Shown: piece after piece, positions 20,004 to 40,080 of the stretch
How positions within the stretch are numbered: the first letter of the stretch is position 1
How the letters are laid out: every line of letters starts with the position of its first letter
Assembly (NCBI GenBank): GCA_020253445.1
Contig: JADCBP010000001.1
Location: 310,001 to 374,000 of the forward strand
Length of the DNA: 64,000 bases
DNA from: Methylobacterium sp.
GTDB taxonomy: Bacteria; Pseudomonadota; Alphaproteobacteria; Rhizobiales; Beijerinckiaceae
Direction: 5' to 3'
Program-made: the position numbers and the translations under genes
The notes under the pieces: generated by a model
What the model was told of the DNA's origin: nothing
Databases searched by the model: none
What the model saw: only the letters and a program-made list of their open reading frames with translations

Positions 20004-23539
<3,536 letters not shown>

Positions 23540-24843: not shown

Positions 24844-25362
24844 TCAGCTCCCGGCGAGCAGTTCTTCGCGCGGCACCGCGAAACGGATGGCGAGATCGGC
24901 GATGGCCTCGATGTCATCGAGATGCACCTGCGGCAGGGGGACAGCGGCGAAGGGCGCATCCGTGGCGATGGCGCGGATCATCGGATCATCGGGATGCAGC
25001 GGCTCACGGCCATTGGCGGCACGGAAAACCTCGATCTTCGGATGGGTCTCGCGCTTGAACCCTTCGACCAGCACGAGATCCGCCGGGCCGAGCCGCGCCA
25101 GCAATTGCCGCAGGGCGAATTCCGGCTCGTCGCGCAATTCGTGGATCAGGGCGAAGCGGTTCGCGGATGAGACCAGCACCTCGGTGGCCCCCACCACGCG
25201 ATGGGTGTGGCTGTCCTTGCCGGGCTGATCGATCTCCAGGCTGTGATGGGCATGCTTCACGGTGGAGACACGATACCCTCGCTGCACGAGGGTGGGGATG
25301 AGTTTCGAAACGAGCGTCGTCTTGCCTGCGCCGCTCCACCCCGCCAATCCGATCACCCGCAA
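24844..25362 (-). CDS. mobB: molybdopterin-guanine dinucleotide biosynthesis protein B
   Basis: 172 residues. P-loop GWSGAGKTTLVSKL at about 8-21, then VSTVKHAHHSLEIDQPGKDSHTHRVVGA and DLVLVEGFKRETHPKIEVFR, typical of MobB. It binds GTP and assists MobA. The start is uncertain: either TTG at 25362 or GTG at 25356 (six bases later). A ribosome-site-like agggggcgg lies just upstream. moeA follows. Confidence 0.93.
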   Translation of the reverse strand: MRVIGLAGWSGAGKTTLVSKLIPTLVQRGYRVSTVKHAHHSLEIDQPGKDSHTHRVVGATEVLVSSANRFALIHELRDEPEFALRQLLARLGPADLVLVEGFKRETHPKIEVFRAANGREPLHPDDPMIRAIATDAPFAAVPLPQVHLDDIEAIADLAIRFAVPREELLAGS

Positions 25363-25536: not shown

Positions 25537-26547
25537 TTACTCGGCCGGCTGCCCGGCAGCATGCGGATGCAGCGTGCCCTTCTTCATTTCTTCCTCGACC
25601 CAGAGCGAATGATGCTCCTTGGCCCAGTTGAGATCGACCTCGCCGGAACCCATGGCATCGAAGGCGCCTTCCATTCCGATCGAGCCGATATAGGCGTGGG
25701 CCAGCATCAACGCGATCATCACATAGGCGGTGACACCATGGATGGTCGCGTGCCACTGCACGTCAGCCAGCGTGGTGGAATAGGGGAACAGCAAATACCA
25801 ACCCGAGAGCGAGAGCAGGAAGCCGCCAATCACCACCGACCAGAAAACGATCTTCTGGCCCCCATTGAAACGCTTCGCCGGAGGGTGGCTTCCCTTGGAG
25901 AGAAGCCCTCCGCCCGCCGCGAACCAGCGAAGATCCACCGCATTCGGAAGATTGTCCTTCACCCAGACGAGGAACACCAGCAGCACGCCTGCCATGAAGG
26001 CGAAGCCAACATAATTGTGGATGTACTTGGCGTATTGCGCCCAGGCGGCGAAGGCCTCAGGGCCCATCACCGGGGCCAGCAGCAGCTTGCCGAAGGTGAC
26101 ATTCGCGCCCGTGATGGCGAGGATGATGAAGCTGACAGCCGAAAGCCAGTGAGCGAAGCGCTCGACCATGTTGAAGCGCAGGATACGCTGGTTCGAAGGC
26201 CCCGCATCGATGCGGATCTTGCCGCGCATCAGGTAGAACCCGATCAACAGCGCGACCATGCCGAGGAAAGTCCAGGTGCCCAAGGCATGCAGGGTTTCCT
26301 GGTTGAAGGCGCGCCATTCACGGCCGGACTGGATCAGGCCTGCAGCCTTCGGATCGGGGATGGAGATGCGGCCCGAAATCTGCTCGCCAGGTTTCAGCGC
26401 CTGCATGAGCTGCTCTTCCTTCACCGATTGCGCGGTGGGGTTGACGCTCTGGGCCGCGACAGGGGCAGCCATGAAGAAGGCCGCAAGAAGCAGCGCGCCA
26501 AAACCGGATTTGACCTGGCAACCACGAAGGAAACGGGAGAAGGACAT
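25537..26547 (-). CDS. formate dehydrogenase subunit gamma (cytochrome b556)
   Basis: 336 residues. After a cleavable-looking signal peptide (GALLLAAFFMAAPVAAQ) there are about 70 periplasmic residues and four membrane helices. Candidate heme-ligand histidines lie in ERFAHWLSAVSF, YIHNYVGFAFM and HATIHGVTAYVMIALMLAHAY. It anchors the catalytic subunits and passes electrons to quinone. It is larger than E. coli FdnI/FdoI (about 210 residues) because of the N-terminal periplasmic extension, usual in alphaproteobacterial enzymes. The start at 26547 is chosen because it precedes the signal peptide. 26610 is also open. Confidence 0.92.
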   Translation of the reverse strand: MSFSRFLRGCQVKSGFGALLLAAFFMAAPVAAQSVNPTAQSVKEEQLMQALKPGEQISGRISIPDPKAAGLIQSGREWRAFNQETLHALGTWTFLGMVALLIGFYLMRGKIRIDAGPSNQRILRFNMVERFAHWLSAVSFIILAITGANVTFGKLLLAPVMGPEAFAAWAQYAKYIHNYVGFAFMAGVLLVFLVWVKDNLPNAVDLRWFAAGGGLLSKGSHPPAKRFNGGQKIVFWSVVIGGFLLSLSGWYLLFPYSTTLADVQWHATIHGVTAYVMIALMLAHAYIGSIGMEGAFDAMGSGEVDLNWAKEHHSLWVEEEMKKGTLHPHAAGQPAE

Positions 26548-26628
26548 CGACACGATAAGCCCCCTTATGTTCGGTTTATTGTTGGGTTGAGGCGGGATTC
26601 CCCGCCTCACGCTTTCTCGTGCATCGCC

Positions 26629-27225
26629 TCAGATGGCGATGGTTTCCTTGTAGGCGACCTTCCAGCCCCAGGCACCGGAACCATAGCCGCGCTTTGCGAC
26701 ACGCTCCTTGTAGATGGAAGCGATGATATCGCCATCACCAGCCAGCAGGGCCTTGGTCGAGCACATCTCCGCGCAGAGCGGGAGCTTGCCCTCGGCGAGG
26801 CGGTTACGGCCATATTTATCGAGTTCGGCCGAGGCATTATCCGCCTCCGGACCGCCGGCGCAGTAGGTGCACTTGTCCATCTTGCCGCGCGAGCCGAAGT
26901 TGCCGGTCTTGGGATATTGCGGAGCGCCAAACGGGCAGGCGTAGAAGCAATAGCCGCAGCCGATGCACAGGTCCTTCGAGTGCAGCACCACCGCATCCGC
27001 CGTGGTGTAGAAGCAGCTCACCGGACAAACGGAGGCACAGGGCGCATCCGTGCAATGCATGCAGGCCATCGAGACCGAGCGCTCGCCGGGCTTGCCGTCG
27101 TTGATGGTCACGACACGGCGACGGTTGATGCCCCAGGGCACCTCGTGCTCGTTCTTACAGGCGGTGACGCAGGCGTTGCATTCGATGCAGCGATCCGCGT
27201 CGCAGAGAAATTTCATGCGAGCCAT
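26629..27225 (-). CDS. formate dehydrogenase subunit beta, four 4Fe-4S clusters
   Basis: 198 residues. Four cysteine groups: CIECNACVTACKNEHEVPWG, CMHCTDAPCASVCPVSC, CIGCGYCFYACPFGAP, and CTYC with CAEMC near the C-terminus. This is the electron wire from the molybdenum subunit to the cytochrome. It lacks the C-terminal membrane helix of E. coli FdnH. Ribosome site gggaggagagacacc. It starts 15 bases after the alpha subunit gene. Confidence 0.95.
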   Translation of the reverse strand: MARMKFLCDADRCIECNACVTACKNEHEVPWGINRRRVVTINDGKPGERSVSMACMHCTDAPCASVCPVSCFYTTADAVVLHSKDLCIGCGYCFYACPFGAPQYPKTGNFGSRGKMDKCTYCAGGPEADNASAELDKYGRNRLAEGKLPLCAEMCSTKALLAGDGDIIASIYKERVAKRGYGSGAWGWKVAYKETIAI

Positions 27226-27240: not shown

Positions 27241-30207
27241 TTACGCCGCACGGATCTGGCAGAGCGTGACCTTGGTTTCCTGCATCCCGGTGACGGGATC
27301 ATAGCCATAGGTCGTCACGGTGTTCACGCTTTCGCCCAAGACATAGGGATCCGTTCCCTTGGGGTATTTCGCGCGCTGGTCCTCGCCCTGGAACCACCCA
27401 CCGAAGTGGAACGGCATCCATGCGACACCCTTGCCCACACGCTCGGTGACGAGCGCCTTCATGCGGGCCTTGGAGTTGTTCTCGGCACCGGTGACCCAGA
27501 CCCAGCCGCCATCGCGGATGCCACGATCGGCCGCATCCGCGGGGTTGATTTCGACGAACATGTCCTGCTGCAGTTCGGCGAGCCACGGGTTGGAGCGGGT
27601 CTCTTCGCCGCCACCCTCGTATTCCACGAGACGCCCCGAGGAGAGGATGATCGGGAATTCCTTCGCGATCCCCTTGTCCACCGCCGCCTTCTGAACCGTG
27701 AAGCCGATATTCGGCACGCGGAACTGGCGGAAGTCCGGCCTGGTCGGGTACTGCGCCACCAGATCGGTGCGCGGCGTGTAGATCGGCTCCCGATGCACGG
27801 GGATCGGGTCCGGCAGGTTCCACGCGTTCACGCGGGCCTTGCCGTTGCCGAACGGGATACAGCCATGCTCGAGGGCCACGCGCTGGATACCGCCCGAGAG
27901 GTCGATCGCCCAAGAGACGTTATCCGGGTTGTTGCCGCCGATGCGGTTGATGACCGAGAGTTCCGCCTCCGTGAGATCCTTGTCCCAGCCGAGGCGCTTC
28001 AGCACGCCCAGGGTGAATTGCGGATAGCCGTCCTTGATCTCCGAGCCTTCGGAATACGAACCTTCCGAGAGCAGGTTGATCTTCTTCTTGGAGCCATCGG
28101 CCTGCGGCTCCTCGTATTCCACGCCGAAACGGGCGCGGAAGGTGCCGCCGCCATCCTTCACATGCACATTGGTGTTGTAGAGGATGTGCGTGCCCGGATG
28201 ACGGTATTCCGGCGTGCCCCAGCACGGCCAGGGCAGGCCGTAGAAGTCACCGCCCACTTCCGGCGCATCCTTCGGCGCGCGCAGCGTGACAAGATCGAAC
28301 TTGTCCTGGTGCTTCATATGCGCCTTGAGCCGCTCCGGAGACTGGCCGCAATAGCCGGTTGACCAGCCCCCGCGGTTGATCTCGCGGAGGATGGATTCGG
28401 GCTCCGGCTCCTCGCCATACTTGCCCTTCACCATCTTGATGTTCTTGAACATCTGGTCGGCGAAGCCAAGCTTCTGGGCGAGTTGATGAATGACCCAGTA
28501 ATCGTTCGCGCTCTCGAAGATCGGATCGACCACCTTCTCGCCCCACTGGATGGAGCGGTTGGAAGCCGTGCGCGAACCCGAGCATTCGAACTGGGTGCAG
28601 ATCGGCAGCAGATAAGTACCGTTCTTGCGGTTCGAGATATGCGCGAAGGTGGTTGGATGCGGGTCGGCAACCACCACGAGATCGAGCTTCTCGAGACCCT
28701 TGGTCATTTCCGGCATGCGGGTGACGGTGTTGCCGCCATGGCCGAACACCACGATGCCCTTCACATTGTCCTTCTGGCCCACCTGCTCCTTCGGCAGGGT
28801 GACCGCATCGAACCAGCGCGTCGAGGTGATGCCCGGCATCTCCATGGTGGAGACATCCTTGCCATCCGCCGCCTTGATGGTGTCGAAGCGGCCACGGAGC
28901 CAATCCACCGGGGTTTCCCAGACGCGCGCCCAATGCCCCCAGGCACCCGCATCGAGGCCATAATAGAGCGGGAGCGTCGTGACATCGAGGCCGAGGTCGG
29001 TCGCGCCCTGCACATTGCAGTGGCCGCGGAAGATGTTGGCACCCGTGCCGGCCGAACCCACGTTACCCGTGGCAAGCAGCAAGGTGCAGAAGGCGCGGAC
29101 ATTGGCCGTGCCGACGGTCTTCTGCGTGGCGCCCATGCACCAGATGAGGGTCGCCGGCTTCTCGAGCGCGAAGGTCTTCGCGACCTTCTCAAGCTGGGCG
29201 CCGGGAATGCCGGTGACCCGCTCGACTTCTGCCGGCGTCCACTTTTCGCATTCCTTCTTCACCATCTCCATGCCGTAGACGCGGCTTTCGATGAACTTCT
29301 TGTCTTCCCAGCCATTCTTGAAGATGTGGTGCAGCATGCCCCAGATCACCGGGATATCCGTGCCCGGACGCATGCGGACATACTCGGTCGCGTGGGCGGC
29401 CGTGCGGGTCATGCGCGGGTCGATCACGATCATATTCGCCCGGTTGATCTCCTTGCCGGAGAGGACGTGCTGGAGCGAGACCGGATGCGCTTCCGCCGGG
29501 TTGCCGCCCATGATGATCATGGTCTTGGCATTGCGGATATCGTTGTAGGAGTTGGTCTGCGCACCATAGCCCCAGGTGTTCGCCACGCCCGCCACCGTGG
29601 TGGAGTGGCAGATGCGGGCCTGGTGATCGACGTTGTTGGTGCCCCAGAAGGCCGCGAACTTGCGGAACAGGTAGGCCCCTTCATTCGAGAACTTCGCCGA
29701 GCCGAGGAACCACACCGAATCAGCGCCGGAAGCCTGGCGGATTTCCAGCATCTTCTTCGAAATCTCGTCGAAGGCCTGCTGCCAGGAGATGCGCTGCCAC
29801 TCGCCGTTGACGAGCTTCATCGGATATTTCAGGCGGCGCTCGCCCTTCACAAGTTCGCGAACCGCAGCACCCTTGGCGCAATGCGTGCCGCGGTTGATGG
29901 GGCTGTCCCAGGCCGGCTCCTGCCCGACCCAGACACCTTCCTGCACCTCGGCCTTCACCGTGCAGCCCACCGAGCAATGGGTGCAGATATTGGTCTTCAC
30001 ATCCACCGGTTTGCCGGGGACGGGCATCTTCGCCCGAGCCTCACGAACCGTGCCGACGGAAAGGGAGCCGAGAGCCGCGAGACCACCGGCCGCAAGGCCG
30101 GAGCGCCGCAGGAACGAACGGCGATCCAGCCGCTCGGCACCGAGGCCGTTGACGGAGGAGAGGAATGCGCCGCGCGGCGCCTGACCTTCCTTGCGCTTGA
30201 TGAGCAT
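27241..30207 (-). CDS. formate dehydrogenase catalytic subunit alpha (Cys type)
   Basis: 988 residues. Oxidises formate to CO2 at a bis-MGD molybdenum or tungsten centre. A Tat signal DRRSFLRRSGLAAGGLAAL (29-47) sends it to the periplasm. One 4Fe-4S cluster is bound by C75, C78, C82 and C110. The metal ligand is C200 in ARICHSTTVAG, next to the catalytic H201. E. coli FdnG/FdhF have selenocysteine there, so no selenium machinery is needed here. The C-terminal MGD domain includes FPIILSSGRLVEYEGGG and NPADAADRGIRDGGWV. Ribosome site gaggaaaacgcc. Confidence 0.96.
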   Translation of the reverse strand: MLIKRKEGQAPRGAFLSSVNGLGAERLDRRSFLRRSGLAAGGLAALGSLSVGTVREARAKMPVPGKPVDVKTNICTHCSVGCTVKAEVQEGVWVGQEPAWDSPINRGTHCAKGAAVRELVKGERRLKYPMKLVNGEWQRISWQQAFDEISKKMLEIRQASGADSVWFLGSAKFSNEGAYLFRKFAAFWGTNNVDHQARICHSTTVAGVANTWGYGAQTNSYNDIRNAKTMIIMGGNPAEAHPVSLQHVLSGKEINRANMIVIDPRMTRTAAHATEYVRMRPGTDIPVIWGMLHHIFKNGWEDKKFIESRVYGMEMVKKECEKWTPAEVERVTGIPGAQLEKVAKTFALEKPATLIWCMGATQKTVGTANVRAFCTLLLATGNVGSAGTGANIFRGHCNVQGATDLGLDVTTLPLYYGLDAGAWGHWARVWETPVDWLRGRFDTIKAADGKDVSTMEMPGITSTRWFDAVTLPKEQVGQKDNVKGIVVFGHGGNTVTRMPEMTKGLEKLDLVVVADPHPTTFAHISNRKNGTYLLPICTQFECSGSRTASNRSIQWGEKVVDPIFESANDYWVIHQLAQKLGFADQMFKNIKMVKGKYGEEPEPESILREINRGGWSTGYCGQSPERLKAHMKHQDKFDLVTLRAPKDAPEVGGDFYGLPWPCWGTPEYRHPGTHILYNTNVHVKDGGGTFRARFGVEYEEPQADGSKKKINLLSEGSYSEGSEIKDGYPQFTLGVLKRLGWDKDLTEAELSVINRIGGNNPDNVSWAIDLSGGIQRVALEHGCIPFGNGKARVNAWNLPDPIPVHREPIYTPRTDLVAQYPTRPDFRQFRVPNIGFTVQKAAVDKGIAKEFPIILSSGRLVEYEGGGEETRSNPWLAELQQDMFVEINPADAADRGIRDGGWVWVTGAENNSKARMKALVTERVGKGVAWMPFHFGGWFQGEDQRAKYPKGTDPYVLGESVNTVTTYGYDPVTGMQETKVTLCQIRAA

Positions 30208-30461: not shown

Positions 30462-31268
30462 TCAGGCGGCATCCGGCGTTTCTGCGCCATCAAGCGCGAA
30501 AGCCTCGCGCTCGATGGCCATGAAGACTGTCCCGAGCCGTCCGACGGCCCGGTAGAAAGGTTGCGCATCCATCTTCTCGAGATCGGCGAAGAAGCGCTCG
30601 ACCCACGGCTTCAGATGGCGCTCGAAATAGGCCCTCTCCTCGCGCGCTTCGCAGGGAATGCGGCGGGCGATGAGGCCGGACATGGTCTCCATCAGGAAAC
30701 CGAGATGATCTTCCGGCTCCTGGAATTCCTCGCCACGCTCCAGCCCGAGGCGGCGCATGTCGGAGCGCACGCGCACCAGAGGACGCTCATAGAGGAAGCC
30801 GGTCTGATAATAGGAGGCGAAGGGCAGCAATTCGCCCCGTCCCACGCCGATGAACAGGTCGAAATGCTCGCGGGCGATCTCCTCAGCACGGGTGACATCC
30901 GCCTGGGCGGCGAGCCCGCGCAATGCTTCACCGAGCGCCCCGTCATCCCCGTCAAGCTGGCGCAGGCCGATCAGGATGCGCTCGTCCGGAACGCGCAGGA
31001 GGAGATTGGCGAAAAGCAGGTAAAGTTGAGCGCGAGCCTCGTCGATCGGATCCAGCACCACGGGGACCGACACCCCATCTTCGGAAGGGTAGAGATCAGG
31101 GCGCAGGACATGGCGGGCAACGCCCGTTGCGGCCTCGACCGCTGCCACACGCTCGGCGGGAACACGACACCATCCGGAAATCGATGGCTGAGCCACACCA
31201 AGCTTGCGCGCGAGAGCGGAAGCTCCACCCGCAGCCTGCAGCGCGGTTTGTAAACCGGCGTCCCTCAT
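30462..31268 (-). CDS. TorD/DmsD-like chaperone with N-terminal Cro/YdaS-type helix-turn-helix
   Basis: 268 residues. Residues about 1-58 read as a Cro/YdaS-type DNA-binding domain: LQTALQAAGGASALARKLGV, then AQPSISGWCRVPAERVAAVE and TGVARHVLRPDLYP. Residues about 72-260 are an all-alpha TorD-like chaperone, with EHFDLFIGVGRGELLPFASYY (the conserved pattern in this family), EPEDHLGFLMETM and an aromatic-rich end. The chaperone half should bind the Tat signal of the alpha subunit until cofactor loading is complete. The HTH half could bind DNA. A well-formed promoter lies about 100 bases upstream. The start at 31268 follows cggagagca. Confidence 0.85.
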   Translation of the reverse strand: MRDAGLQTALQAAGGASALARKLGVAQPSISGWCRVPAERVAAVEAATGVARHVLRPDLYPSEDGVSVPVVLDPIDEARAQLYLLFANLLLRVPDERILIGLRQLDGDDGALGEALRGLAAQADVTRAEEIAREHFDLFIGVGRGELLPFASYYQTGFLYERPLVRVRSDMRRLGLERGEEFQEPEDHLGFLMETMSGLIARRIPCEAREERAYFERHLKPWVERFFADLEKMDAQPFYRAVGRLGTVFMAIEREAFALDGAETPDAA

Positions 31269-31368
31269 TGCTCTCCGATCAGCGGTAAACCCGCCTTTTG
31301 CTTATCTGTCCTGCCCGCAGGGTTTTCTGACGAACCCGAGGACATAGTAAAATGGACTAGTCTTAAAA

Positions 31369-31396
31369 ATTATAGGCCATTCCTATGGGCAGGCAA
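31369..31396 (-). promoter_or_regulatory. sigma-70-like promoter for the FDH structural operon
   Basis: On the minus strand TTGCCT (31396-31391) is followed after 16 bases by a perfect TATAAT (31374-31369), about 100 bases before the HTH-TorD start. The region between is AT-rich compared with the rest of the window. A short inverted repeat (gcaggc/gcctgc, 31389-31403) overlaps the -35. Confidence 0.6.
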
Positions 31397-31412
31397 GGCC
31401 TGCGGCGTTGGG

Positions 31413-32075
31413 TCACGGAGGCAATGCCCCTCCGTGGCGGCGGGGTCTTGGCTCCGTCTCGACCCCATCACAAGCGGGACAAGGCGATGAGCCAAAATTT
31501 TCGTCGTTTTTTGAGAGACTTACTGCTGCAACAACCTGTCCGTCAGCTTCTTCGGAAGGGGATTCTTCGACTTTCGTATAAGCTGATGGTTCTGTCTCCG
31601 TAACAATGGCCGGATTCTGGACCGTTTCGCCCTCGGAAGCGATCGTTGCGACGGCTTTTTTCGGCTCGCCGATAACCTGCCGGAGCAGCGCCTCGACATC
31701 GACATCAGAGCCCAGGGGCCCGAAGCCGGGGACCCCCATCGGATCGTTGAAATCCCACTGGTAATCGACCGGTCCGATGTAGTCGCGGATGGCCGGATCG
31801 GCGCTCCACATCTTGCGCAATGCGGCGTTTTTCAGGGCTTCCGGCACGCCTTTCTTCAGGAACAACGAGATGTCGCTCTCTGCCGTGAGCGTCTCGATAT
31901 CCGGCAGGAGGGACAGATCAACCTCCTCCTCCGGTTCAACGGGCGGGGCGGGGGTTTCTGCTGATTCGGAGCCGGAAACCGGCGCGACCGCCGCTTCCCC
32001 GGCGGCGATCTCGCGCTTTCGGCGTGACCAGCGGCTGAGAAATCCCTCCGGGCGATTCGGGTCTTCCACGCTCAT
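31413..32075 (-). CDS. DUF3306 domain protein
   Basis: 220 residues. Begins with a basic segment (GFLSRWSRRKREIAAG), an acidic low-complexity linker, then the DUF3306 core LSLLPDIETLTAESDISLFLKKGVPEALKNAALRKMWSADPAIRDYIGPVDYQWDFND. It ends with CPACDG and the family's terminal pattern RRHGGALP. No known activity. It is always found near formate dehydrogenase genes as far as I recall. The start overlaps the DUF3305 stop by 4 bases. Last gene of the accessory operon. Confidence 0.88.
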   Translation of the reverse strand: MSVEDPNRPEGFLSRWSRRKREIAAGEAAVAPVSGSESAETPAPPVEPEEEVDLSLLPDIETLTAESDISLFLKKGVPEALKNAALRKMWSADPAIRDYIGPVDYQWDFNDPMGVPGFGPLGSDVDVEALLRQVIGEPKKAVATIASEGETVQNPAIVTETEPSAYTKVEESPSEEADGQVVAAVSLSKNDENFGSSPCPACDGVETEPRPRRHGGALPP

Positions 32076-32578
32076 GCCTCGCCTCCGCGGCCGGGCCGGC
32101 GATGCGCGAGGGCATCGGGGTTCACCCGGTCGCGCTTGCGCTTGAAGAATTCGCGCTCGACATGGTGCCTGTCCACGAAGGCCGCGAGCTGCGCGGCGAT
32201 CTCCGGCGGCATCGGCAGCGGCTCGACGATGTTGGAGCCCGATTCCGTATGCGCCTCGCCCTCGGCCGGGTCGGCCGTGACGGCGACGACGCTGACATAG
32301 GCATCAAGCTCGCCCATGCGCAGCACGACCCAGAGCTTCGGCTGGCCGGTGAGCAGGTTGTCGCGGTAATTCGCGGTTTCCGTGGAGGCGAAGACGAGGC
32401 TCGTCGAGCCCGCATAATAGCTCTCGTTCTCGCCATCGCGCGCCACAAGGGTCATTGGCTCGGTCTCGGGCAGACCGGTCACGACCCGCGCCGGCACCCA
32501 GATATGGTTGATCCAGGGGCTCGCGGCCTTCTTCTTGTCCACGATGACGGCGACGGGGATCACCTCTTCCACCAGCAT
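32072..32578 (-). CDS. DUF3305 domain protein
   Basis: 168 residues. The DUF3305 pattern is IPVAVIVDKKKAASPWINHIWVPARVV, then YYAGSTSLVFASTETANYRDNLLTGQPKLWVVLR and the C-terminal PPEIAAQLAAFVDRHHVEREFFKRKRDR. Soluble, function unknown. It starts 4 bases after the DUF6352 stop and overlaps DUF3306. A frame open to 32842 is a shadow of DUF6352. Confidence 0.88.
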   Translation of the reverse strand: MLVEEVIPVAVIVDKKKAASPWINHIWVPARVVTGLPETEPMTLVARDGENESYYAGSTSLVFASTETANYRDNLLTGQPKLWVVLRMGELDAYVSVVAVTADPAEGEAHTESGSNIVEPLPMPPEIAAQLAAFVDRHHVEREFFKRKRDRVNPDALAHRRPGRGGEA

Positions 32579-32582
32579 GGGA

Positions 32583-33680
32583 TCACTCTCCGGCTGCGAG
32601 CGGCAGGCCCGCGATGAGGTTCTGCGGCTTGATGCGCACGAAGCGATCCGCGCTGGAACCCAGCACCGCAAAGCCGGCCGCGCCGCGCTTGCCCGCCTCG
32701 AGGCGCGGATGATCCGGCAGCGTGAAGGTGAAGAGGGCGAGCACGCGCGAGGCCTCCTCGTCTTCCAGGGCCTCGCCCCGCCACACCTTGTTCGCGAAAG
32801 CCGTTCCATCCTGATCGAGCGACAGGAACCAGCCGAAATCATGGCCCGAGAACCGCTCGACGGGGGTGAGTTCGATCGCGATCCCGGTGAGATGCGCGAT
32901 CCAGCGCGTCATGGCGCGGGCCATCGCGGCGCGGCCGCCTGCGAGATCGGTGATGTCGAGCACGAGATCATGCGCATCCGAGCGGGCGCGATAGGTCCCG
33001 GCATTGGTGTCATTCAGCACTTCAAGCTCCGATACCGCCGGCCCGCCCAGCATCGAGAGGAGCGGCGAATGGGTGCGATCATGCTCGTGGGTCTCGATGG
33101 TCTCGGCATCGGCGAGCAGCGCGCGGCCTTCATGGAAGGTGAGGCGCTGGGCGCGGTAGAAGCATTCCGCCGCGCGCAGGGCCCAGCCATCGGTCACCTC
33201 ATCGAAGGCGTTCCGCGCGATGACATGCGCGAGATGCCCCATGAAGATGACCGGCAGGCGCGGCTTGCCCCTGGTGACCAGCGCGAGATAGGCCGCTTCC
33301 AGCGTCGGGTGCGCCAGGAGGTGATCGCGGAAGGCCAGGAAATAGCCAAGATTTTCGCGGGCATCTTCATCCGCGACGAGAGCGAGTTCATCCGGGGGCA
33401 CGACTCGACGCGGCTCGGCGAGCAGGCTGGCATGGAGCCCGCGCTCCACCGGGCAGGCCTCTTCCGGCGGCACGAGTTCCGGCCGGGCGAGATAGGCTGC
33501 GAGGAAGGCATCGGTAATGACAAGCCCGCCTTCCTCGCCCCGATCCACAAGGTGATGGCCGCTCGCCACCCAGAAATCGTCATGGATGGGGGAAGCCTCG
33601 CGCGGCGCGGTGGCGACGACCTTGTGGTCATGGTTATGGGCTTGGCGGGTAGGGGCTTGGCGGGTATCGGCTTGGCTCAT
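32583..33680 (-). CDS. DUF6352 family protein
   Basis: 365 residues, soluble, no transmembrane segment or signal peptide. The N-terminal 25 residues are His-rich and low complexity (RQAHNHDHK). The conserved part begins DDFWVASGHHLVDRGEEGGLVITDAFL, with ENLGYFLAFRDHLLAHPTLEAAYL and a long C-terminal half. I recognise it as DUF6352 from FDH-linked operons. No biochemical function is known. Its start overlaps the DUF6505 stop by 4 bases. Confidence 0.82.
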   Translation of the reverse strand: MSQADTRQAPTRQAHNHDHKVVATAPREASPIHDDFWVASGHHLVDRGEEGGLVITDAFLAAYLARPELVPPEEACPVERGLHASLLAEPRRVVPPDELALVADEDARENLGYFLAFRDHLLAHPTLEAAYLALVTRGKPRLPVIFMGHLAHVIARNAFDEVTDGWALRAAECFYRAQRLTFHEGRALLADAETIETHEHDRTHSPLLSMLGGPAVSELEVLNDTNAGTYRARSDAHDLVLDITDLAGGRAAMARAMTRWIAHLTGIAIELTPVERFSGHDFGWFLSLDQDGTAFANKVWRGEALEDEEASRVLALFTFTLPDHPRLEAGKRGAAGFAVLGSSADRFVRIKPQNLIAGLPLAAGE

Positions 33681-34213
33681 CGGGCCTGCCCCTCCTTCAT
33701 GAGGCCGAGCAGATCGACCTGTTCCTCGATATCATCCGGTTCTTCCACGAATTCGAAAACGCGGCCATGCCGGTCATCCGTGCCCGGCAGCAGGGTGCGG
33801 AAGCGCTCGATGATCTCGCCGTTTTCCACGCTGCGATGGATGGCGACGAGCGTGCCGACAACCGGCTCTGCGAGTTCAGCGGATGTGGCGATTTCCGCCT
33901 CCGCCGCCGCGCGTGCCGCTTCCATATCCGGCGCGCCACAATCGGTGAGCAGGCGCTGCGCGAGGGCTTCCACGGCGGCCGCGCGCTCCTCTTCCGTCGC
34001 CTCCACGATGGTCGCGAGGGTCGACCAGCCGAAGCTCGCAATGCCGAGCAGACCGGAGCGGAAGGCCGCGCGCTCCTTGCCGATCAGCGTCTCCACCGGC
34101 CGTTCCCAGAACAGAAACGTGCCGGGCACGGCCCATTCGCCCGGTTCCGCCGCGCGGGTGAAGACAAAGGCGTCGGACGGATCGAGCCGGATGGTGCGCA
34201 GGAGTTTCATCAT
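33677..34213 (-). CDS. DUF6505 family protein
   Basis: 178 residues beginning MMKLLRTIRLDPSDAFVF, with AVPGTFLFWERPVETLIGKERAAFRSGLLGIASFGWSTL and an Ala/Glu-rich helical middle. I recognise it as DUF6505, linked to formate dehydrogenase loci. Soluble, function unknown. The ribosome site is aaaggacg before ATG ATG at 34213. It lies 13 bases after the ligase-like gene. Confidence 0.8.
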   Translation of the reverse strand: MMKLLRTIRLDPSDAFVFTRAAEPGEWAVPGTFLFWERPVETLIGKERAAFRSGLLGIASFGWSTLATIVEATEEERAAAVEALAQRLLTDCGAPDMEAARAAAEAEIATSAELAEPVVGTLVAIHRSVENGEIIERFRTLLPGTDDRHGRVFEFVEEPDDIEEQVDLLGLMKEGQAR

Positions 34214-34226
34214 CGTCCTTTCCGGT

Positions 34227-34964
34227 TCAGCCGCGCGGCTCGTTTTCCGCCGGGTCATACCATTCCGGCGGGTTGATGCGGCTGAGCAGCGGCAGGCGCT
34301 CGGGGGCATCGGTCGAATTGCGATGCACGAGGAGATCGCCATTGGTGTCGATGCCGCGCTTCACATCACCCTTCATCCTCGGCAGGCGCTCGAGATAGCG
34401 CGGGCCGATGGCGCGGAAGCCCTTCTCGGCCCAGCTATCCGCCTCGATCATGAAGTGCCGGGCGAAACTCGCCGCGAATTCCTCGGGGTTCCAGGCGTCG
34501 AAGCCCTCGTCATCGAGCGTGGTGACGCTGGGGGAAAGCCCGATGCCGAGATCGCGCATGCCCCCCGCGCGGATCATCGCGCCGAAGACAAGCCATTCCG
34601 GCACGTCATCCTCGCCGCACGCCTCCGGCCAGGCGATGCGCCCGCCGCCGATCAGCGCGCCATCGAAATGGAGCGAAGCGGGATAGACGAATTCGATGGG
34701 CAATTCGGGCGGCGCGATATTCGCGAGCGTCTCGGCCAGCGCGTTCATGCCTGCAAACAGGATCTTGCGCGAAAGGCGCAGCGGCTCCTCCGGCTCCAGC
34801 ACGAGCGCGAAATCAATCAGCGCGAAGCGGCCGACATAGAACAGCGAGCCCGCGCCAAACTCGGACGCGCGCGCCTTTGCGATCTCAAAGGAATCCTCGA
34901 TCTCGCGCAGGCGACAGGGTTTCACCAGCGGCGGGAATTTCGTGGTTTCGGCATTCGTCAGCAT
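34227..34964 (-). CDS. biotin/lipoate-protein-ligase-like protein of the FDH locus
   Basis: 245 residues. The fold resembles the BPL/LplA/LipB family: SLFYVGRFALIDFALVLEPEEPL, IEFVYPASLHFDGALIGGGRIAWPEA and WLVFGAMIRAG. The Gly-rich GGGRIAWP corresponds to the nucleotide loop. In place of the KxGGIL-type segment that carries the catalytic Lys of real ligases it has PEWLVFGAMIRAG, so ligase activity is doubtful. First gene of a tight five-gene accessory operon. The start at 34964 is the first conserved Met. A frame open to 35360 is a shadow. Confidence 0.75.
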   Translation of the reverse strand: MLTNAETTKFPPLVKPCRLREIEDSFEIAKARASEFGAGSLFYVGRFALIDFALVLEPEEPLRLSRKILFAGMNALAETLANIAPPELPIEFVYPASLHFDGALIGGGRIAWPEACGEDDVPEWLVFGAMIRAGGMRDLGIGLSPSVTTLDDEGFDAWNPEEFAASFARHFMIEADSWAEKGFRAIGPRYLERLPRMKGDVKRGIDTNGDLLVHRNSTDAPERLPLLSRINPPEWYDPAENEPRG

Positions 34965-35063
34965 GCGATGCGGGGCGTTGAACCGCCCTCCCCCTCGTTT
35001 TGGCCAGTGGGGATCTCTGCCTTGCCCCCTTGTTTCTTCAGCCCTAGCGTTATTTGAACCTTT

Positions 35064-35075
35064 TCGTTCGAACGA
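35064..35075. promoter_or_regulatory. 12-base perfect palindrome in the divergent promoter region
   Basis: TCGTTCGAACGA is perfectly self-complementary and sits between two divergent FDH-linked units (ligase-like operon leftward, iron-sulfur protein rightward), 56 bases before the latter's start. Such a site could be an operator for a dimeric regulator. No regulator has been matched to it. Confidence 0.4.
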
Positions 35076-35130
35076 CAAGGGCCGGGGGCCAGGAACGGAA
35101 TAACCAACACCCCGTGCCCGCCCGAGGGAC

Positions 35131-37191
35131 ATGATGGCAGACGTTTCCCCTTCCCCGCGCATGGGCGCCATGCTGGCGCTTTGCTCCTGCGAACGGACCT
35201 TTTCGCCCGATGAGGTGACGATCACCCGAGGCCTGAAGGCGGCCGGGCAGGAGCCGGGCATTGTCGCCTGTTCGCAGCTCTGCGGCGCGGATCGCGACAT
35301 GCTGGGCAAGCTCGCGGGCGCAAGCACCGTGACCATTGCCTGCGAGCAGGAACAGAGCACCTTGCGCGCCGCGCTGTCCGAGGCCGGATTTGCCGGTGAG
35401 GCGCGCTTCGTCGATATCCGCGATCGCGCGGGATGGTCCAGCGAAGGTGCCGAGGCCGGCCCAAAAATGGCGGCCTTGCTCGCGACCGCGCAATTGCCTG
35501 CCCCGGCGCTTCCCTTCTTCGCGATGGAAAGCCAGGGTGTAACGCTGGTCTATGGCCGCGACGAGGTGGCGCTCGAGGTCGCCGCGCGGCTCGCAGATAC
35601 GCTGGATATCACCGTGATGCTAGCGAAGCCCGGCGCGGTGACGCCGCCGCGCCAGCGCGATTTCCCGATCGCCTGCGGCACGATCCGGCAGGCCAAGGGT
35701 TATCTCGGCACGTTTGAACTCACGCTCGATGGATTCGCGCTGGCCTCGCCCGCTTCACGGCAGGCGCTCGTGTTCGGGCCGACGCGCAACGGCGCGCAAT
35801 CGCGCTGCGATGTGCTGATCGACCTCACGGGCGGGCAGCCTCTCTTCCACGCGGCTGAGCTGCGCGACGGCTATCTTTGCGCCGATCCGCGCGACCCGGT
35901 GGGGGTGGAGAAACTTATCGCGAAAGCGCGCGATCTCGTCGGCACCTTCGACAAGCCGAAATACATCACTTTCCACGAGGAACTCTGCGCGCATTCCCGC
36001 TCGAAGATCACGGGCTGCACGCGCTGTATCGAAGTTTGCCCCACCGGCGCGATCAGCCCGAATGGCGATGCGGTGGCGATTGATCCCGGAATCTGCGCGG
36101 GTTGCGGCTCCTGCGCTTCCGTCTGCCCCACGGGTGCGGCCAGCTACGCCTTGCCAGCCGCGGATGACCTGATGAAGCGGCTTCGTGTGATGCTTCGCGC
36201 CTATCGCAGCGCGGGTGGCGAGCGTGCGGTAATGCTCTTCCATGATGCCGAGCATGGCCTGCCACTGATCGATGCGCTCGCGCGTTTCGGCGAGGGTTTG
36301 CCGGCGAATGTCATCCCCGTTCAGGTGAATGAAGTCACGCAAGTGGGCCTCGAGCAGATCGCCGCGAGCTTCGCCTATGGCGCAGCGGGCGTCGCCTTCC
36401 TCATCCGTTCGAAGCCGAAGCATGACCCGCTGCCGCTCGCGAAACTCGCGAGCCTTTCGGCGGAACTCCTGCCCGCCCTGGGCTACCCCAGGGACGCGGT
36501 GTCGATCCTCTCGATCGATGATCCCGACCAGCTTCTCGCGGGCCTGCGCGCCATGCCTGCGCATGTGGTCGCGGCCGAGCCCGCGAGCTTCCTGGCCGTG
36601 GGCGAGAAGCGCCCGGTGATGATGATGGCGCTTCGGGAATGGCGCAACGTCGCGCCGGCGCGCCCGGCCAAGGTGGCGCTGCCCGCCGGTTCGCCCTTCG
36701 GCACCGTGAACGTGAGAAGCGAGGGCTGCACGCTCTGCCTCGCCTGCGTCTCCGCCTGCCCGGCCTCGGCGCTGAGCGCCAATCCGGAGCGACCGGAACT
36801 GCGCTTCCAGGAGGATCTCTGCGTGCAATGCGGCCTCTGCCAGGCGACCTGCCCGGAGAAGGTCATCACCATCGCCCCGCAGATCGATTTCGAGCAAATC
36901 AATGCCGCGCCCGTCACGCTGAAGGAGGAAGAGCCCTACCCGTGCGACCATTGCGGGAAGCTCTTCGGCACAAAGTCCACCATCGAGCGCATCAAGGCGA
37001 AGCTGACAGGCCAGCACTGGATGTATTCGGGCCAGAATGCCGATCGCGCCAAGCTCATCGGCTATTGCGACGATTGCCGCGTGGAAGCGATGACCAATAC
37101 CGGCTTCGACCCCTATGCGGGCCCGGCGCGACCGCGCGTGCGGACCACCGAGGATTACTTTCGCGAGAACCCCGAGGACAAGCTGAACTGA
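35131..37191 (+). CDS. multi-cluster 4Fe-4S protein linked to formate dehydrogenase
   Basis: 686 residues. Two separate ferredoxin pairs: residues about 295-340 (CTRCIEVCPTGAI and CAGCGSCASVCPTGA) and about 532-585 (CTLCLACVSACPASAL and CVQCGLCQATCPEKV). After these come CDHCG (about 603) and CDDC (about 644), a possible zinc or further metal site. The N-terminal 270 residues have Cys groups (CSCERTF, CSQLC). No membrane segment. It is probably an electron carrier between formate oxidation and a cytosolic acceptor. Divergent from the accessory operon. Two Met codons start the frame (35131 and 35134). Confidence 0.85.
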   Translation: MMADVSPSPRMGAMLALCSCERTFSPDEVTITRGLKAAGQEPGIVACSQLCGADRDMLGKLAGASTVTIACEQEQSTLRAALSEAGFAGEARFVDIRDRAGWSSEGAEAGPKMAALLATAQLPAPALPFFAMESQGVTLVYGRDEVALEVAARLADTLDITVMLAKPGAVTPPRQRDFPIACGTIRQAKGYLGTFELTLDGFALASPASRQALVFGPTRNGAQSRCDVLIDLTGGQPLFHAAELRDGYLCADPRDPVGVEKLIAKARDLVGTFDKPKYITFHEELCAHSRSKITGCTRCIEVCPTGAISPNGDAVAIDPGICAGCGSCASVCPTGAASYALPAADDLMKRLRVMLRAYRSAGGERAVMLFHDAEHGLPLIDALARFGEGLPANVIPVQVNEVTQVGLEQIAASFAYGAAGVAFLIRSKPKHDPLPLAKLASLSAELLPALGYPRDAVSILSIDDPDQLLAGLRAMPAHVVAAEPASFLAVGEKRPVMMMALREWRNVAPARPAKVALPAGSPFGTVNVRSEGCTLCLACVSACPASALSANPERPELRFQEDLCVQCGLCQATCPEKVITIAPQIDFEQINAAPVTLKEEEPYPCDHCGKLFGTKSTIERIKAKLTGQHWMYSGQNADRAKLIGYCDDCRVEAMTNTGFDPYAGPARPRVRTTEDYFRENPEDKLN

Positions 37192-37194
37192 GGT

Positions 37195-38460
37195 TCAGCG
37201 CGTTGCCTTCTCGATGAAATCGACCAGAGCCTCGCGGTCTTCCGCGCGATTCACCACCTGCTCCGGCATCTTGGTGCCGGGGAGCATGGCGTTGGGGCCG
37301 ATCTCGAACAGCCGCGCGATGGTCTCGCGGGACCAGATGATTGGCTTGTCGAGAAGCGCCGGCGAATAGGCATAACCCTCGGCCGTGCCGACCTTGCGGC
37401 CCATCACGCCATGCAGCGTGGGGCCCGCGCGATTGCCATCATCCGGCGAGAGCGTATGGCAGGCACCGCAGGCCTTGAAAACCTCCGCGCCGGGATGGTT
37501 CGCGAGCGCCTGCACGCGCGCCTCGGGCGCTTCGGCGAGAACGGGATTGACCGGCTCGCCCGTGGCCACCACCCAGCGCCGCACAAGGCGATCCGCGCCG
37601 CCGGTGAGAACCTCCCGGCCATCGGGCGAAAAGGCGAGCGACCAGAGCGGGAAGGCCGGGCCGGACATGCGGCGCTGGATGTTGCGCGCCGGGCGATCCA
37701 CCAGCGCCAGCGCCCCCCGGAAACCCGCCGCGCCGATGATCCTGCCGTCGGGCGAGGCCGCAAGCGCGACGATCGGCACTTCCGCGATCGGGAGCGCGGC
37801 GATGGCCCCCGTCACGGGGTTCACGAGGCGCAATTGCCCATCGGCGGCGGCGACGGCAAGCTCGTCGCCCGCGCGCACCAGCGCATTCAGCGGCACGCCG
37901 ATCTCGATGATGCGCGGCGCATCCGTGCCCTTGTGGAGAATGAGCTGGCCGTCATAGCCGGCGGAGGCGAGCGTGCCATCGGGCAGGTAGGCGACCGCAT
38001 TCACATTGCCCTTGTGGGCGTCGATCACGCGCGGGGTGCCGCCCGCGAGCGGCCAGACGCGGATCGTGCCATCCCAGCTCGCGGAGGCGATTTCCGTTCC
38101 ATCCAGGGAAAGCGCAAGGCCGGCAATGGGCGCCTCATGGCCTTCGAGAGTCGCGCGGGGCACATGGCCCTCGCGAGGCCAGAGGAGGATGCGGCGATCC
38201 TCGCCGGCGCTGGCATAGCCGCCATCGGGCAGGGCGATCAGCGCGTTCACCGCGCCTTCATGGCCGCGCAGAACCGTTTCAGCCACGCCGCGCGCCGGCA
38301 CCCAGCGGATGATCGTGGTATCGAAGCTCGCGGTGGCGATGCGGCCATCGGCCGTGGCGACAATGGCCCGAACCGGCCCGCCATGCCCACGCAGATCGGC
38401 GGCCTCACCCGGCAGCGCGAGGAAAACCGGCAACGCCCAGATCGACCAACGCAAAGCCAT
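37195..38460 (-). CDS. WD40 beta-propeller fused to cytochrome c
   Basis: 421 residues. Signal peptide MALRWSIWALPVFLALPGEA, then about seven WD40-like blades over residues 22-315 (GHGGPVRAIVATADGRIATAS, GHEGAVNALIALPDGGYASAG, GHEAPIAGLALSLDGTEIASA and so on). The C-terminal 95 residues are a class I cytochrome c with the heme site CGACH at about 330 and a Met region GTKMPEQ. Periplasmic. The propeller may be a docking platform. It faces the iron-sulfur protein gene tail to tail and diverges from tusA. Electron partner unknown. Confidence 0.87.
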   Translation of the reverse strand: MALRWSIWALPVFLALPGEAADLRGHGGPVRAIVATADGRIATASFDTTIIRWVPARGVAETVLRGHEGAVNALIALPDGGYASAGEDRRILLWPREGHVPRATLEGHEAPIAGLALSLDGTEIASASWDGTIRVWPLAGGTPRVIDAHKGNVNAVAYLPDGTLASAGYDGQLILHKGTDAPRIIEIGVPLNALVRAGDELAVAAADGQLRLVNPVTGAIAALPIAEVPIVALAASPDGRIIGAAGFRGALALVDRPARNIQRRMSGPAFPLWSLAFSPDGREVLTGGADRLVRRWVVATGEPVNPVLAEAPEARVQALANHPGAEVFKACGACHTLSPDDGNRAGPTLHGVMGRKVGTAEGYAYSPALLDKPIIWSRETIARLFEIGPNAMLPGTKMPEQVVNRAEDREALVDFIEKATR

Positions 38461-38557
38461 TCTTCCCTCTCGACAGCCCCGAACGCTTCCACCATATGGC
38501 GGGAATGCGGCTGCGGGAAAGCGTCCTGCGGCAAGGAGCCTCGCGACGGGAGCGACC

Positions 38558-38782
38558 ATGCCTGAAATCGCCCTCGACCTTCTGGGCCTGCGCTGCCCCC
38601 TGCCTGCGCTGAAAACGCGCAAGGCGCTGAAGGGTCTCCCGCCCGGCACCGTGCTGGTGGTGACGGCGAATGACCCTCTGGCGGGGCTCGACATTCCGAA
38701 CCTCATCCGCGAGACCGGCGACACGCTTCAGACGACCGAAAAGGTTGGCGAATGCATGACCTTCCGGATCGTGAAGGCCTGA
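38558..38782 (+). CDS. tusA: TusA-type sulfur carrier
   Basis: 74 residues. The active motif LRCPLPALKTRKAL carries the single sulfur-accepting Cys. TusA proteins relay persulfide sulfur to tRNA thiolation, molybdenum cofactor or sulfur metabolism. The start at 38558 is preceded by gggagcgacc. The YeeE-like transporter gene begins 134 bases later in the same direction, so it may serve thiosulfate assimilation. Confidence 0.9.
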   Translation: MPEIALDLLGLRCPLPALKTRKALKGLPPGTVLVVTANDPLAGLDIPNLIRETGDTLQTTEKVGECMTFRIVKA

Positions 38783-38916
38783 GCGGGAAAATCCGCCTTT
38801 CCTGCGGGAAAACCTGGCAAAAAGACCCGCAACAGCGCCAAACATCGCAAGGTTCTTCCCATCGTCAAAACGGCTCCGGATGCTTACAAAGGGCTCGGAA
38901 GAAACGGGGATTGTCG

Positions 38917-40080
38917 ATGCTTCTCGCGCAGAAACCGCTTGCCCTCATGGCCCGCCCGCAAGCCTTGCTCGCTCTGGCGGCCATGGTCCTGCTGCTGGCC
39001 CTCGCCGGCCTCAATGGCGGTCTGCGCATGGCGCTGCTCGCGGGCATCGGCCTCTTTGCGGGCCTTGCGCTCTACCATGCGAGCTTCGGCTTCACCGCAG
39101 CGTGGCGGCGCTTCATCCTCGAGCGGAAAAGCGCGGGGCTTCGCGCGCAGCTCATCATGCTCGGCGTGGCGAGCCTTGTCTTCTTCCCCGCTTTGGCTGC
39201 GGGCAGCGTGCTGGGCCAGCCCGTGGGCGGCTATGTGTTCCCCGTGGGCGTGGCGCTCGTCACCGGCGCATTTCTCTTTGGCCTCGGCATGCAATTGGGT
39301 GGGGGCTGCGGCTCCGGCACGCTCTTCACCATCGGCGGCGGCTCGGTGCGCATGATGGTGACGCTTCTGTTCTTCATCCTCGGATCGACGCTCGCGAGCG
39401 CCCATGCCGAGCATTGGTTCGCCTGGCCGAAATTCGCGCCGGTCTCGATTGTCACGAGCCTCGGCTGGTTGCCGGCCCTGGTGGTGATGCTCGCCGGACT
39501 GGCCGCGCTCCATGCGCTGGTGGCGAGGGCGGAGACGGCGCGGCACGGCTCGCTCGCTTCCATCCGGCAGCCTGCGACAAACTGGATCAGCGGCCCCTGG
39601 GCACTGGTGATCGGCGCGCTGGCTCTCGCGCTGGTGAACATCGCGACGCTGATCGTCTCCGGCTGGCCCTGGGGCATCACGGGAGCCTTCGCACTCTGGG
39701 GCGCGAAAATCGCGAGCCTCTTCGGCGCTGCGCCCGAGAGCTGGGCCTTCTTCGCCGGGCAGGAAGGCGCGTTGCGCGGGAGCCTTTTCGCGGACGTCAC
39801 CTCCGTGATGGATTTCGGGATCATCCTCGGCGCGATGCTCGCGGCGATGATGGCGGGGAAATTCAAGCCGGGCCTTTCCATTCCCGCCCGCTCGCTCGCG
39901 GCGGCGGTGATCGGCGGCCTGCTGCTGGGCATCGGCGCAAGGCTCGGCACGGGCTGCAACATCGGCGCCTTCTTCTCCGGCACCGTCTCCGGCAGCCTGC
40001 ATGGCTGGGTGTGGCTCGTCTTCGCCTTTGCCGGCAATGTGTTGGGCGTGAAGCTGCGGCCGATTTTCAGGCTGGACTGA
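38917..40080 (+). CDS. YeeE/YedE (TsuA-like) thiosulfate transporter
   Basis: 387 residues with about nine or ten membrane helices and two matched motifs: GLGMQLGGGCGSGTLFTIGG near residue 130 and ARLGTGCNIGAFFSGTVSGS near residue 350. Their Cys residues correspond to those that relay thiosulfate in TsuA. With tusA next to it this is probably a thiosulfate uptake pair. The start at 38917 is after a frame that opens further upstream without conservation. Converges with the OpgC gene with no gap. Confidence 0.88.
   Translation: MLLAQKPLALMARPQALLALAAMVLLLALAGLNGGLRMALLAGIGLFAGLALYHASFGFTAAWRRFILERKSAGLRAQLIMLGVASLVFFPALAAGSVLGQPVGGYVFPVGVALVTGAFLFGLGMQLGGGCGSGTLFTIGGGSVRMMVTLLFFILGSTLASAHAEHWFAWPKFAPVSIVTSLGWLPALVVMLAGLAALHALVARAETARHGSLASIRQPATNWISGPWALVIGALALALVNIATLIVSGWPWGITGAFALWGAKIASLFGAAPESWAFFAGQEGALRGSLFADVTSVMDFGIILGAMLAAMMAGKFKPGLSIPARSLAAAVIGGLLLGIGARLGTGCNIGAFFSGTVSGSLHGWVWLVFAFAGNVLGVKLRPIFRLD

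Follow-up and report, generated by a model that had tools for sequence, protein, structure and literature searches.

What are five genes, four of them for domains of unknown function (DUFs), doing next to those of a periplasmic formate dehydrogenase (FDH)? The question is raised by a 64,000-nucleotide stretch of Methylobacterium sp. DNA (contig JADCBP010000001.1, positions 310,001 to 374,000), referred to here as the window. At 31413..34964 on its minus strand lie genes for a biotin/lipoate-ligase-like protein, DUF6505, DUF6352, DUF3305 and DUF3306. An earlier note on this DNA described them as a tightly spaced group upstream of a TorD chaperone and the FDH subunits, which might form an undescribed maturation, metal-delivery or electron-transfer complex. 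The coordinates and spacings are confirmed (Table 1), and all five families score far over their Pfam cut-offs; 144 bp separate DUF3306 from torD, which is followed by a gene for a 70-residue twin-arginine translocation (Tat) target and by fdhABC. We propose that DUF3305 and DUF3306, with a divergently encoded polyferredoxin and TorD, are probably dedicated cytoplasmic maturation or proofreading factors of FDH3-type periplasmic FDHs, and as such the counterpart of FdhE.

The gene name fdh3ABC is in use in Methylobacterium, and the enzyme encoded in the window is of this kind. Its FdhB exceeds the NF038355 cut-off, and we see no difference between the enzyme and the FDH3 family, whose definition does not include the accessory set. 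FdhA carries DRRSFLRR near its N-terminus, as expected of a Tat signal, and a cysteine in QARICHSTT (Cys200, invariant in 17 sequences). It is not an FdnG/FdoG protein: the TIGR01553 model gives 312.6 bits against a cut-off of 814.2, and the matched stretch has no stop in the form of an in-frame TGA codon.

A survey of 200 Pseudomonadota genomes places DUF3305 and DUF3306 in an identical set of 22. DUF6505 is found in 15 genomes, all of them within this set, and DUF6352 in nine, again all within the 22 and eight of them among the 15. The family of the ligase-like protein, PF16917, is present in 120 genomes; scores above 95 bits are confined to the 15 genomes with DUF6505, the next-highest score being 58.4. 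Seven of the 22 genomes are without DUF6505 and the ligase-like protein, and 13 are without DUF6352. These three proteins are add-ons and not part of the core, and the idea of one fixed five-protein complex has to be given up.

FDHs were sought in the same 200 genomes with TIGR01553, which is the FdnG model, with full scoring of at most three candidates in each genome. In 22 genomes the model finds full-length matches that exceed the cut-off, and in every one of these genomes an in-frame TGA is present in one or more of them. A second group of 22 genomes gives a partial match of 188-219 bits with no stop, and the next score is 155 bits. The partial-match genomes, with a cysteine FDH3-type FdhA, are exactly the 22 genomes with DUF3305. 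Conversely, the 22 genomes that encode the selenocysteine (Sec) enzyme FdnG have neither DUF3305 nor DUF3306. Locus maps of the 22 DUF3305 genomes show fdhA, fdhB, fdhC, torD, the Tat target, DUF3305 and DUF3306 in every one, and the polyferredoxin in 21. The tie between these DUFs and FDH, named in the earlier note, is borne out: no DUF3305/DUF3306 genome lacks an FDH (0 of 22).

The same association is seen from the side of the enzyme. An FdhA-alignment search gave at least 590 named matches, the best 80 of which were taken as named loci; 61 were counted, and 19 were left out because their upstream sequence was shorter than 6.5 kb or because no fdhA frame scored high. DUF3305 and DUF3306 are present at 55 of these 61 loci, an arrangement with FDH3 that recurs far beyond chance. 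The polyferredoxin is present at 54, DUF6505 at 53, the ligase-like gene at 51, DUF6352 at 47, torD at 58 and the Tat target (TIGR02811 hidden Markov model) at all 61. Plasmid records show the same kind of gene order with fdh3B annotated.

Shared ancestry could produce such a pattern if the genes merely travelled with FDH3 as a linked block, with no action on it. The genes are indeed physically linked in most cases, some of them on large plasmids, yet we consider this account highly improbable. Both DUFs are missing from seven fdhA loci, six of them among the 61 and the seventh on a shorter stretch, and DUF3305 is kept elsewhere in all seven genomes. Five of these genomes were followed further. 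At least three (Skermanella, Salinarimonas rosea and one Azospirillum) have a second FDH3 locus that includes the set. The DUF set of Belnapia is separated from fdhAB and is followed by an fdhC, mobB and moeA, and that of Paracraurococcus extends to the contig end, where it may or may not be linked to FDH. Dispersed single copies also speak against a block: in genome G016, DUF6352, DUF6505 and the ligase-like gene are scattered at 1.55, 1.65 and 2.14 Mb, with the FDH locus at 1.27 Mb.

Partition with FdhE and a proposed role in maturation

FdhE (PF04216), the maturation factor of FdnG, resembles the DUF3305/DUF3306 kit in that it is no subunit of the enzyme and keeps company with a single type of periplasmic FDH. 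We found it in 24 of the 200 genomes, namely all 22 with FdnG and two others (G079 and G178). It occurs in none of the 22 FDH3 genomes, and the window's own genome has no PF04216 match. FdhE is also present in two of 49 named FDH3 genomes. FdnG was searched for in 20 of these 49 (the two with FdhE and 18 without), with all or nearly all candidates scored, and was found in just the two that carry FdhE. Each accessory set therefore tracks its own enzyme, even where both are in one cell: FdhE the Sec FdnG, DUF3305 and DUF3306 the Cys FDH3. This partition is apparently new, as none was found in the literature searches made.

The two sets are not related by sequence. DUF3305 and DUF3306 show neither a PF04216 match nor the four CX2C motifs that go with it, and homology among DUF3305, DUF3306, DUF6352, DUF6505, the ligase-like protein, TorD and FdhE was rejected, with all 21 hhalign pairs at a probability of 7 or less. 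We take Shewanella SO4504 and SO4505 to be DUF3306 and DUF3305. PMC2535785 lists fdnG, fdnH and fdhE as changed in one mutant, along with SO4503-SO4506 and SO4509. The review PMC10609526 states that FdhE is required in E. coli only for the periplasmic FDHs and that fdhE accompanies periplasmic formate dehydrogenase operons systematically.

From the observed co-occurrence, exclusion, gene order, conserved tail and operator correlation we infer every biochemical step proposed here. The kit would hold the catalytic subunit, or proofread it, during insertion of the 4Fe-4S cluster and the sulfurated molybdenum-bis(molybdopterin guanine dinucleotide) cofactor and ahead of Tat export, and would do for FDH3 what FdhE does for the FdnG/FdoG type of E. 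coli. DUF3305 most likely acts at cofactor hand-over from MobA and FdhD, with DUF3306 as its partner, probably docking through a conserved C-terminal tail. The three add-ons (DUF6505, DUF6352 and the ligase-like pseudo-enzyme) may be lineage-specific helpers; other lineages have an ApbC/Mrp iron-sulfur carrier encoded in this neighbourhood. In some Alphaproteobacteria, a TorD with a Cro-like DNA-binding domain would control its own torD-fdh promoter.

Two kinds of neighbouring gene, together with the FdhE partition, point to assembly. The first is mobA, the gene immediately before DUF3305 in three genomes of Azospirillum. A MobA-DUF3305 fusion is known here through an NCBIfam model only (NF011058, MobA, DUF3305 domain-containing), to which MobA aligns at 9-199 and DUF3305 at 220-370; no fusion among 18 gene families was found in the fetched loci. 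The second is an ApbC/Mrp-type gene, present in 22 loci. These include all 14 loci with DUF6505 and the ligase-like gene but without DUF6352, where it is placed between the polyferredoxin and the ligase-like gene. Two of the ApbC/Mrp-type proteins were scanned; one reaches the ApbC cut-off of 348 bits (348.2) and the other falls below it (316.9). In Alloyangia, an ApbC/Mrp iron-sulfur carrier gene and a DUF6494 gene lie within the FDH3 accessory operon (L241:2405-3665), and relatives of DUF6494 occur in 14 loci.

The five proteins and the polyferredoxin might instead serve the finished enzyme, as a complex for electron transfer or regulation. In favour of such a complex, the core includes the polyferredoxin with its four 4Fe-4S motifs, and 35 of the 61 named loci encode a protein whose C-terminal domain resembles cytochrome c. 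However, no iron-sulfur or heme motif was seen in any of the five proteins, and a crude hydropathy check gave no clear membrane span (19-residue maxima of 0.76-1.63, against 2.09 for FdhC and 2.61 for FdhT). By this measure the five look cytoplasmic, whereas FdhA is exported. Hydropathy likewise speaks against the term 'putative membrane proteins' used in PMC4464133. With the FdhE partition and the MobA and ApbC company favouring assembly, we regard electron transfer or regulation as distinctly unlikely. Among the roles put forward in the earlier note, maturation appears the best choice, and electron transfer by the five fares poorly, although the polyferredoxin, a separate neighbour, is a core member.

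Several points weigh against a maturation kit equivalent to FdhE. The fetched stretch of G016 is without a polyferredoxin. Since at most three FDH candidates per genome were fully scored, an FDH3 in some genome without DUF3305 could have escaped. DUF3305-DUF3306 pairs with no FDH nearby are found in Azospirillum (L242:5884-7072 and L223:9116-10751), and G079 and G178 have FdhE with no FdnG match over the cut-off. PMC4464133 has FdhD/E almost always (97%) in species with torD-fdh operons; this figure pools FdhD with FdhE, and for FdhE alone our counts disagree with it. In comparisons with FdhE, hhalign probabilities are 3 or less for DUF3305, DUF3306, DUF6352, DUF6505 and the ligase-like protein, and the polyferredoxin was rejected as an FdhE homologue at a probability of about 1. 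The predicted fold of DUF3305 is confident (predicted local distance difference test score of 94.1); a Foldseek search with this model returned 391 matches (E up to 10), none at 0.001 or below and the best at 0.7, which is no proof of a new fold. Finally, the split in accessory genes could reflect lineage and not job, since FDH3 and FdnG also differ in active-site residue and in ancestry.

A whole class of periplasmic FDHs, then, is without FdhE and carries another gene set, and four DUF families thereby gain a role that can be tested. The kit is also a list of genes to bring along when FDH3-type enzymes are expressed elsewhere.

The five accessory proteins

Conservation in DUF3306 is seen in the N-terminal half and again at the extreme C-terminus, with a variable linker between the two. 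The CPACDG and RRHGGALP sequences to which the earlier note drew attention, as a possible metal site or docking tail, are both present at this end in the window, and they fare differently among relatives. In 85 other reading frames (window excluded, duplicates kept), a CxxC is found in one, and CPACDG was rejected as a metal site. The tail is of the HGGAxP type in 57 and of an MxF type in 15, with 13 of neither type (three of these end in GGGAxP, a close variant of the first).

Sequence searches for solved relatives gave none for DUF3305; the 12 matches to DUF6505, with E values of at least 0.081 (mostly antibodies), and the single one to DUF6352 (E 0.088) were rejected. In 52 DUF6352 sequences Cys76 is conserved in 98%, His263 in 96%, His42 in 92%, and His43 and His83 each in 87%, and these residues could form a metal site. 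If DUF6352 bound metal through them, the add-on genes might serve metal delivery and not the folding or checking of the enzyme. We think this very unlikely: the conserved residues need not lie together in the fold, and a protein absent from 13 of 22 DUF3305 genomes cannot be a general step.

The ligase-like protein has a close solved relative, 3bfm (E 3.6e-72), which is itself listed as of unknown function. It also resembles BirA at an E value of about 1e-5. Lys183 is the catalytic lysine of BirA. The column aligned to it holds lysine in one of 58 sequences and leucine in the window, and active biotin or lipoate ligation was rejected on this ground. The operon as a post-translational modification system for FDH, in which this protein lipoylates or biotinylates a target, has scarcely any chance of being right; the PF16917 match and the similarity to BirA agree with it, while the lysine column, the lack of a function for 3bfm and the seven of 22 genomes that have DUF3305 and DUF3306 without the ligase-like protein do not. 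BirA is both ligase and repressor. In joining a working domain to a DNA-binding one, it is paralleled in this locus by TorD (see below) and not by its relative by sequence, in which the Pfam scan shows no helix-turn-helix (HTH).

Not all of this gene group is undescribed. PMC4464133 reports DUF3305 and DUF3306 upstream of fdhGHI, so their link with FDH has been in print since 2015. For DUF6352 and DUF6505 the description holds, our literature search having found no paper that names either.

A TorD chaperone with a DNA-binding domain

The TorD protein of the window shares the PF02613 domain of TorD/NarJ chaperones and adjoins fdhABC, as in the torD-fdh operons of PMC4464133. It differs from these chaperones by an N-terminal Cro/YdaS-like HTH. 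The fusion is present in 35 of 108 TorD frames of the fetched loci (window counted, duplicates kept), from Hyphomicrobiales and relatives. Full-text literature searches on TorD with helix-turn-helix or HTH domain returned no such fusion by title, and the terms searched for are not used in the passages of PMC4464133 and PMC10609526 that were read. A TorD fused to a Cro-like DNA-binding domain is apparently new.

An inverted repeat, ATAG-N7-CTAT, lies in the gap between DUF3306 and torD and is a candidate operator for this domain. The gap also holds the only sigma70-like promoter of a scan of 31200-35200, and torD-fdh probably also has its own start. We compared 34 loci that have the HTH and a measurable gap with 51 of 59 loci without the HTH (eight gaps below 40 bp were dropped). 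Two of the former, L114 and L213, are the same genomes as L130 and L221, so that the 34 loci represent 32 genomes; duplicates are kept in the HTH-less set. The pattern ATA[G/A]-N7-[C/T]TAT occurs in the gap of all 34 HTH loci and of one of the 51 others. Shuffles gave a mean of 0.055, and other spacings gave 0-2. Over longer stretches, 32 HTH loci have 36 sites in 660 kb, three of them outside the gap, and the 59 HTH-less loci have seven sites in 1118 kb. The recognition helix also varies with the site (duplicates included), QPS going with ATAG in 30 of 30 cases and QPA with ATAA in four of four.

The repeat might be bound by an unrelated regulator, with the HTH of TorD as a passenger domain, given that an operator sequence alone does not name its binder. 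In the TorD tree the HTH domain changes seven times and the site agrees with it in 74 of 75 rows, which argues for TorD as the binder. However, strongly supported branches provide just four independent pairs (four of four agree, p 0.125). Three loci outside the set cut both ways: both features, HTH and site, are present at the plasmid locus L239 and absent from L240 and L241, but the QPP helix of L239 goes with ATAG and leaves the helix-site rule incomplete. Considering also the helix-site pairs listed above, we regard an unrelated regulator as unlikely.

An HTH domain over its Pfam cut-off and a matching dyad in its own promoter region are also features of Cro/YdaS-like autoregulators, and here they imply a self-regulating TorD chaperone, with binding to the operator predicted. 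The window's site falls within TTGCCT-16-TATAAT, where its overlap with the -10 element suggests repression. Elsewhere its position, as judged by eye, seems to be over or ahead of a -35, so that control could be of either sign. A global regulon was rejected: the 3.28-Mb genome has three sites, against five for the backwards pattern, and the other two lie inside open reading frames. With no genome-wide enrichment, control looks local.

Joining this regulation to the maturation kit gives a wider picture, which we advance tentatively and with slightly less than even confidence. Periplasmic FDHs would have two non-homologous maturation systems, FdhE for the Sec FdnG and DUF3305-DUF3306-polyferredoxin-TorD for FDH3, the latter extended by DUF6505, DUF6352 and the pseudo-ligase. 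In many Alphaproteobacteria TorD would in addition be a chaperone-repressor that binds ATAG-N7-CTAT over its own promoter and so ties transcription of the enzyme to the amount of unfinished enzyme held. If true, the fusion would link maturation and transcription directly in one polypeptide, and a chaperone that reports client backlog to a promoter would be a new kind of molybdoenzyme control.

Neighbouring genes

Table 1. Features of the FDH3 locus, in window coordinates
Feature	Position	Strand	Remarks
FdhD sulfurtransferase, start uncertain	21852-22712	+	
MobA	22713-23333	+	
MoeA, molybdenum cofactor gene	23581-24840	-	identified by reading and by position in annotated relatives
MobB, molybdenum cofactor gene	24844-25362	-	identified by reading and by position in annotated relatives
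FdhC, cytochrome b gamma subunit, start uncertain	25537..26610	-	TIGR01583 152.3 bits, cut-off 115.85
FdhB, FDH3 beta subunit (NF038355)	26629..27225	-	336.8 bits, cut-off 240
FdhA, FDH3-type catalytic subunit, Tat signal, QARICHSTT active site (Cys)	27241..30207	-	
Formate dehydrogenase region Tat target (TIGR02811), 70 aa	30218..30430	-	53 bits, cut-off 48.45
TorD/NarJ-family chaperone, N-terminal YdaS/Cro-like HTH (residues ~1-61)	30462..31268	-	PF02613 105.4 bits at 108-228, cut-off 22.2; PF15943 54.2 bits at 6-61, cut-off 30
Sigma70-like torD promoter, TTGCCT-16-TATAAT	31369..31396	-	1 found, 0.4 expected; putative operator in spacer, overlaps -10
Putative operator, inverted repeat ATAG-N7-CTAT (ATAGGAATGGCCTAT on - strand)	31372..31386	.	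sole exact site in window, 0.05 expected
DUF3306 (PF11748), core; variable linker, C-terminal RRHGGALP	31413..32075	-	Pfam 80.4 bits, 220 aa; overlap of 4 with DUF3305
DUF3305 (PF11749), core	32072..32578	-	Pfam 127.4 bits, 168 aa; gap of 4 after DUF6352
DUF6352 (PF19879)	32583..33680	-	Pfam 168.0 bits, 365 aa; overlap of 4 with DUF6505
DUF6505 (PF20115)	33677..34213	-	Pfam 172.2 bits, 178 aa; gap of 13 after ligase-like gene
Biotin/lipoate-ligase-like protein (PF16917), no Lys at BirA Lys183 position	34227..34964	-	Pfam 157.8 bits, 245 aa
Polyferredoxin, divergent, weakly HdrA-like, core	35131..37191	+	686 aa; four 4Fe-4S motifs and a conserved CX2C pair

FdhU and FdhT (TusA and YeeE types) have roles in Campylobacter formate dehydrogenase. 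In the window, genes for a TusA and a YeeE/YedE-FdhT-like transporter lie at 38540-40080 on the plus strand, beside a Cys and not a Sec enzyme. The likeness to the Campylobacter pair is limited, as the transporter scores 139 bits with the FdhT model, below the cut-off of 350. Within reach of the 61 named loci, TusA is found in 13 and FdhT in one.

A further gene, at 37195-38586 on the minus strand, encodes a protein that looks WD40-like by eye and ends in a cytochrome c-like domain, for which NF043008 gives 53.6 bits and so stays under its cut-off of 240; this protein is a possible electron partner. In the polyferredoxin, the CX2C pair at 605/608 and 646/649 is invariant in 76 sequences.

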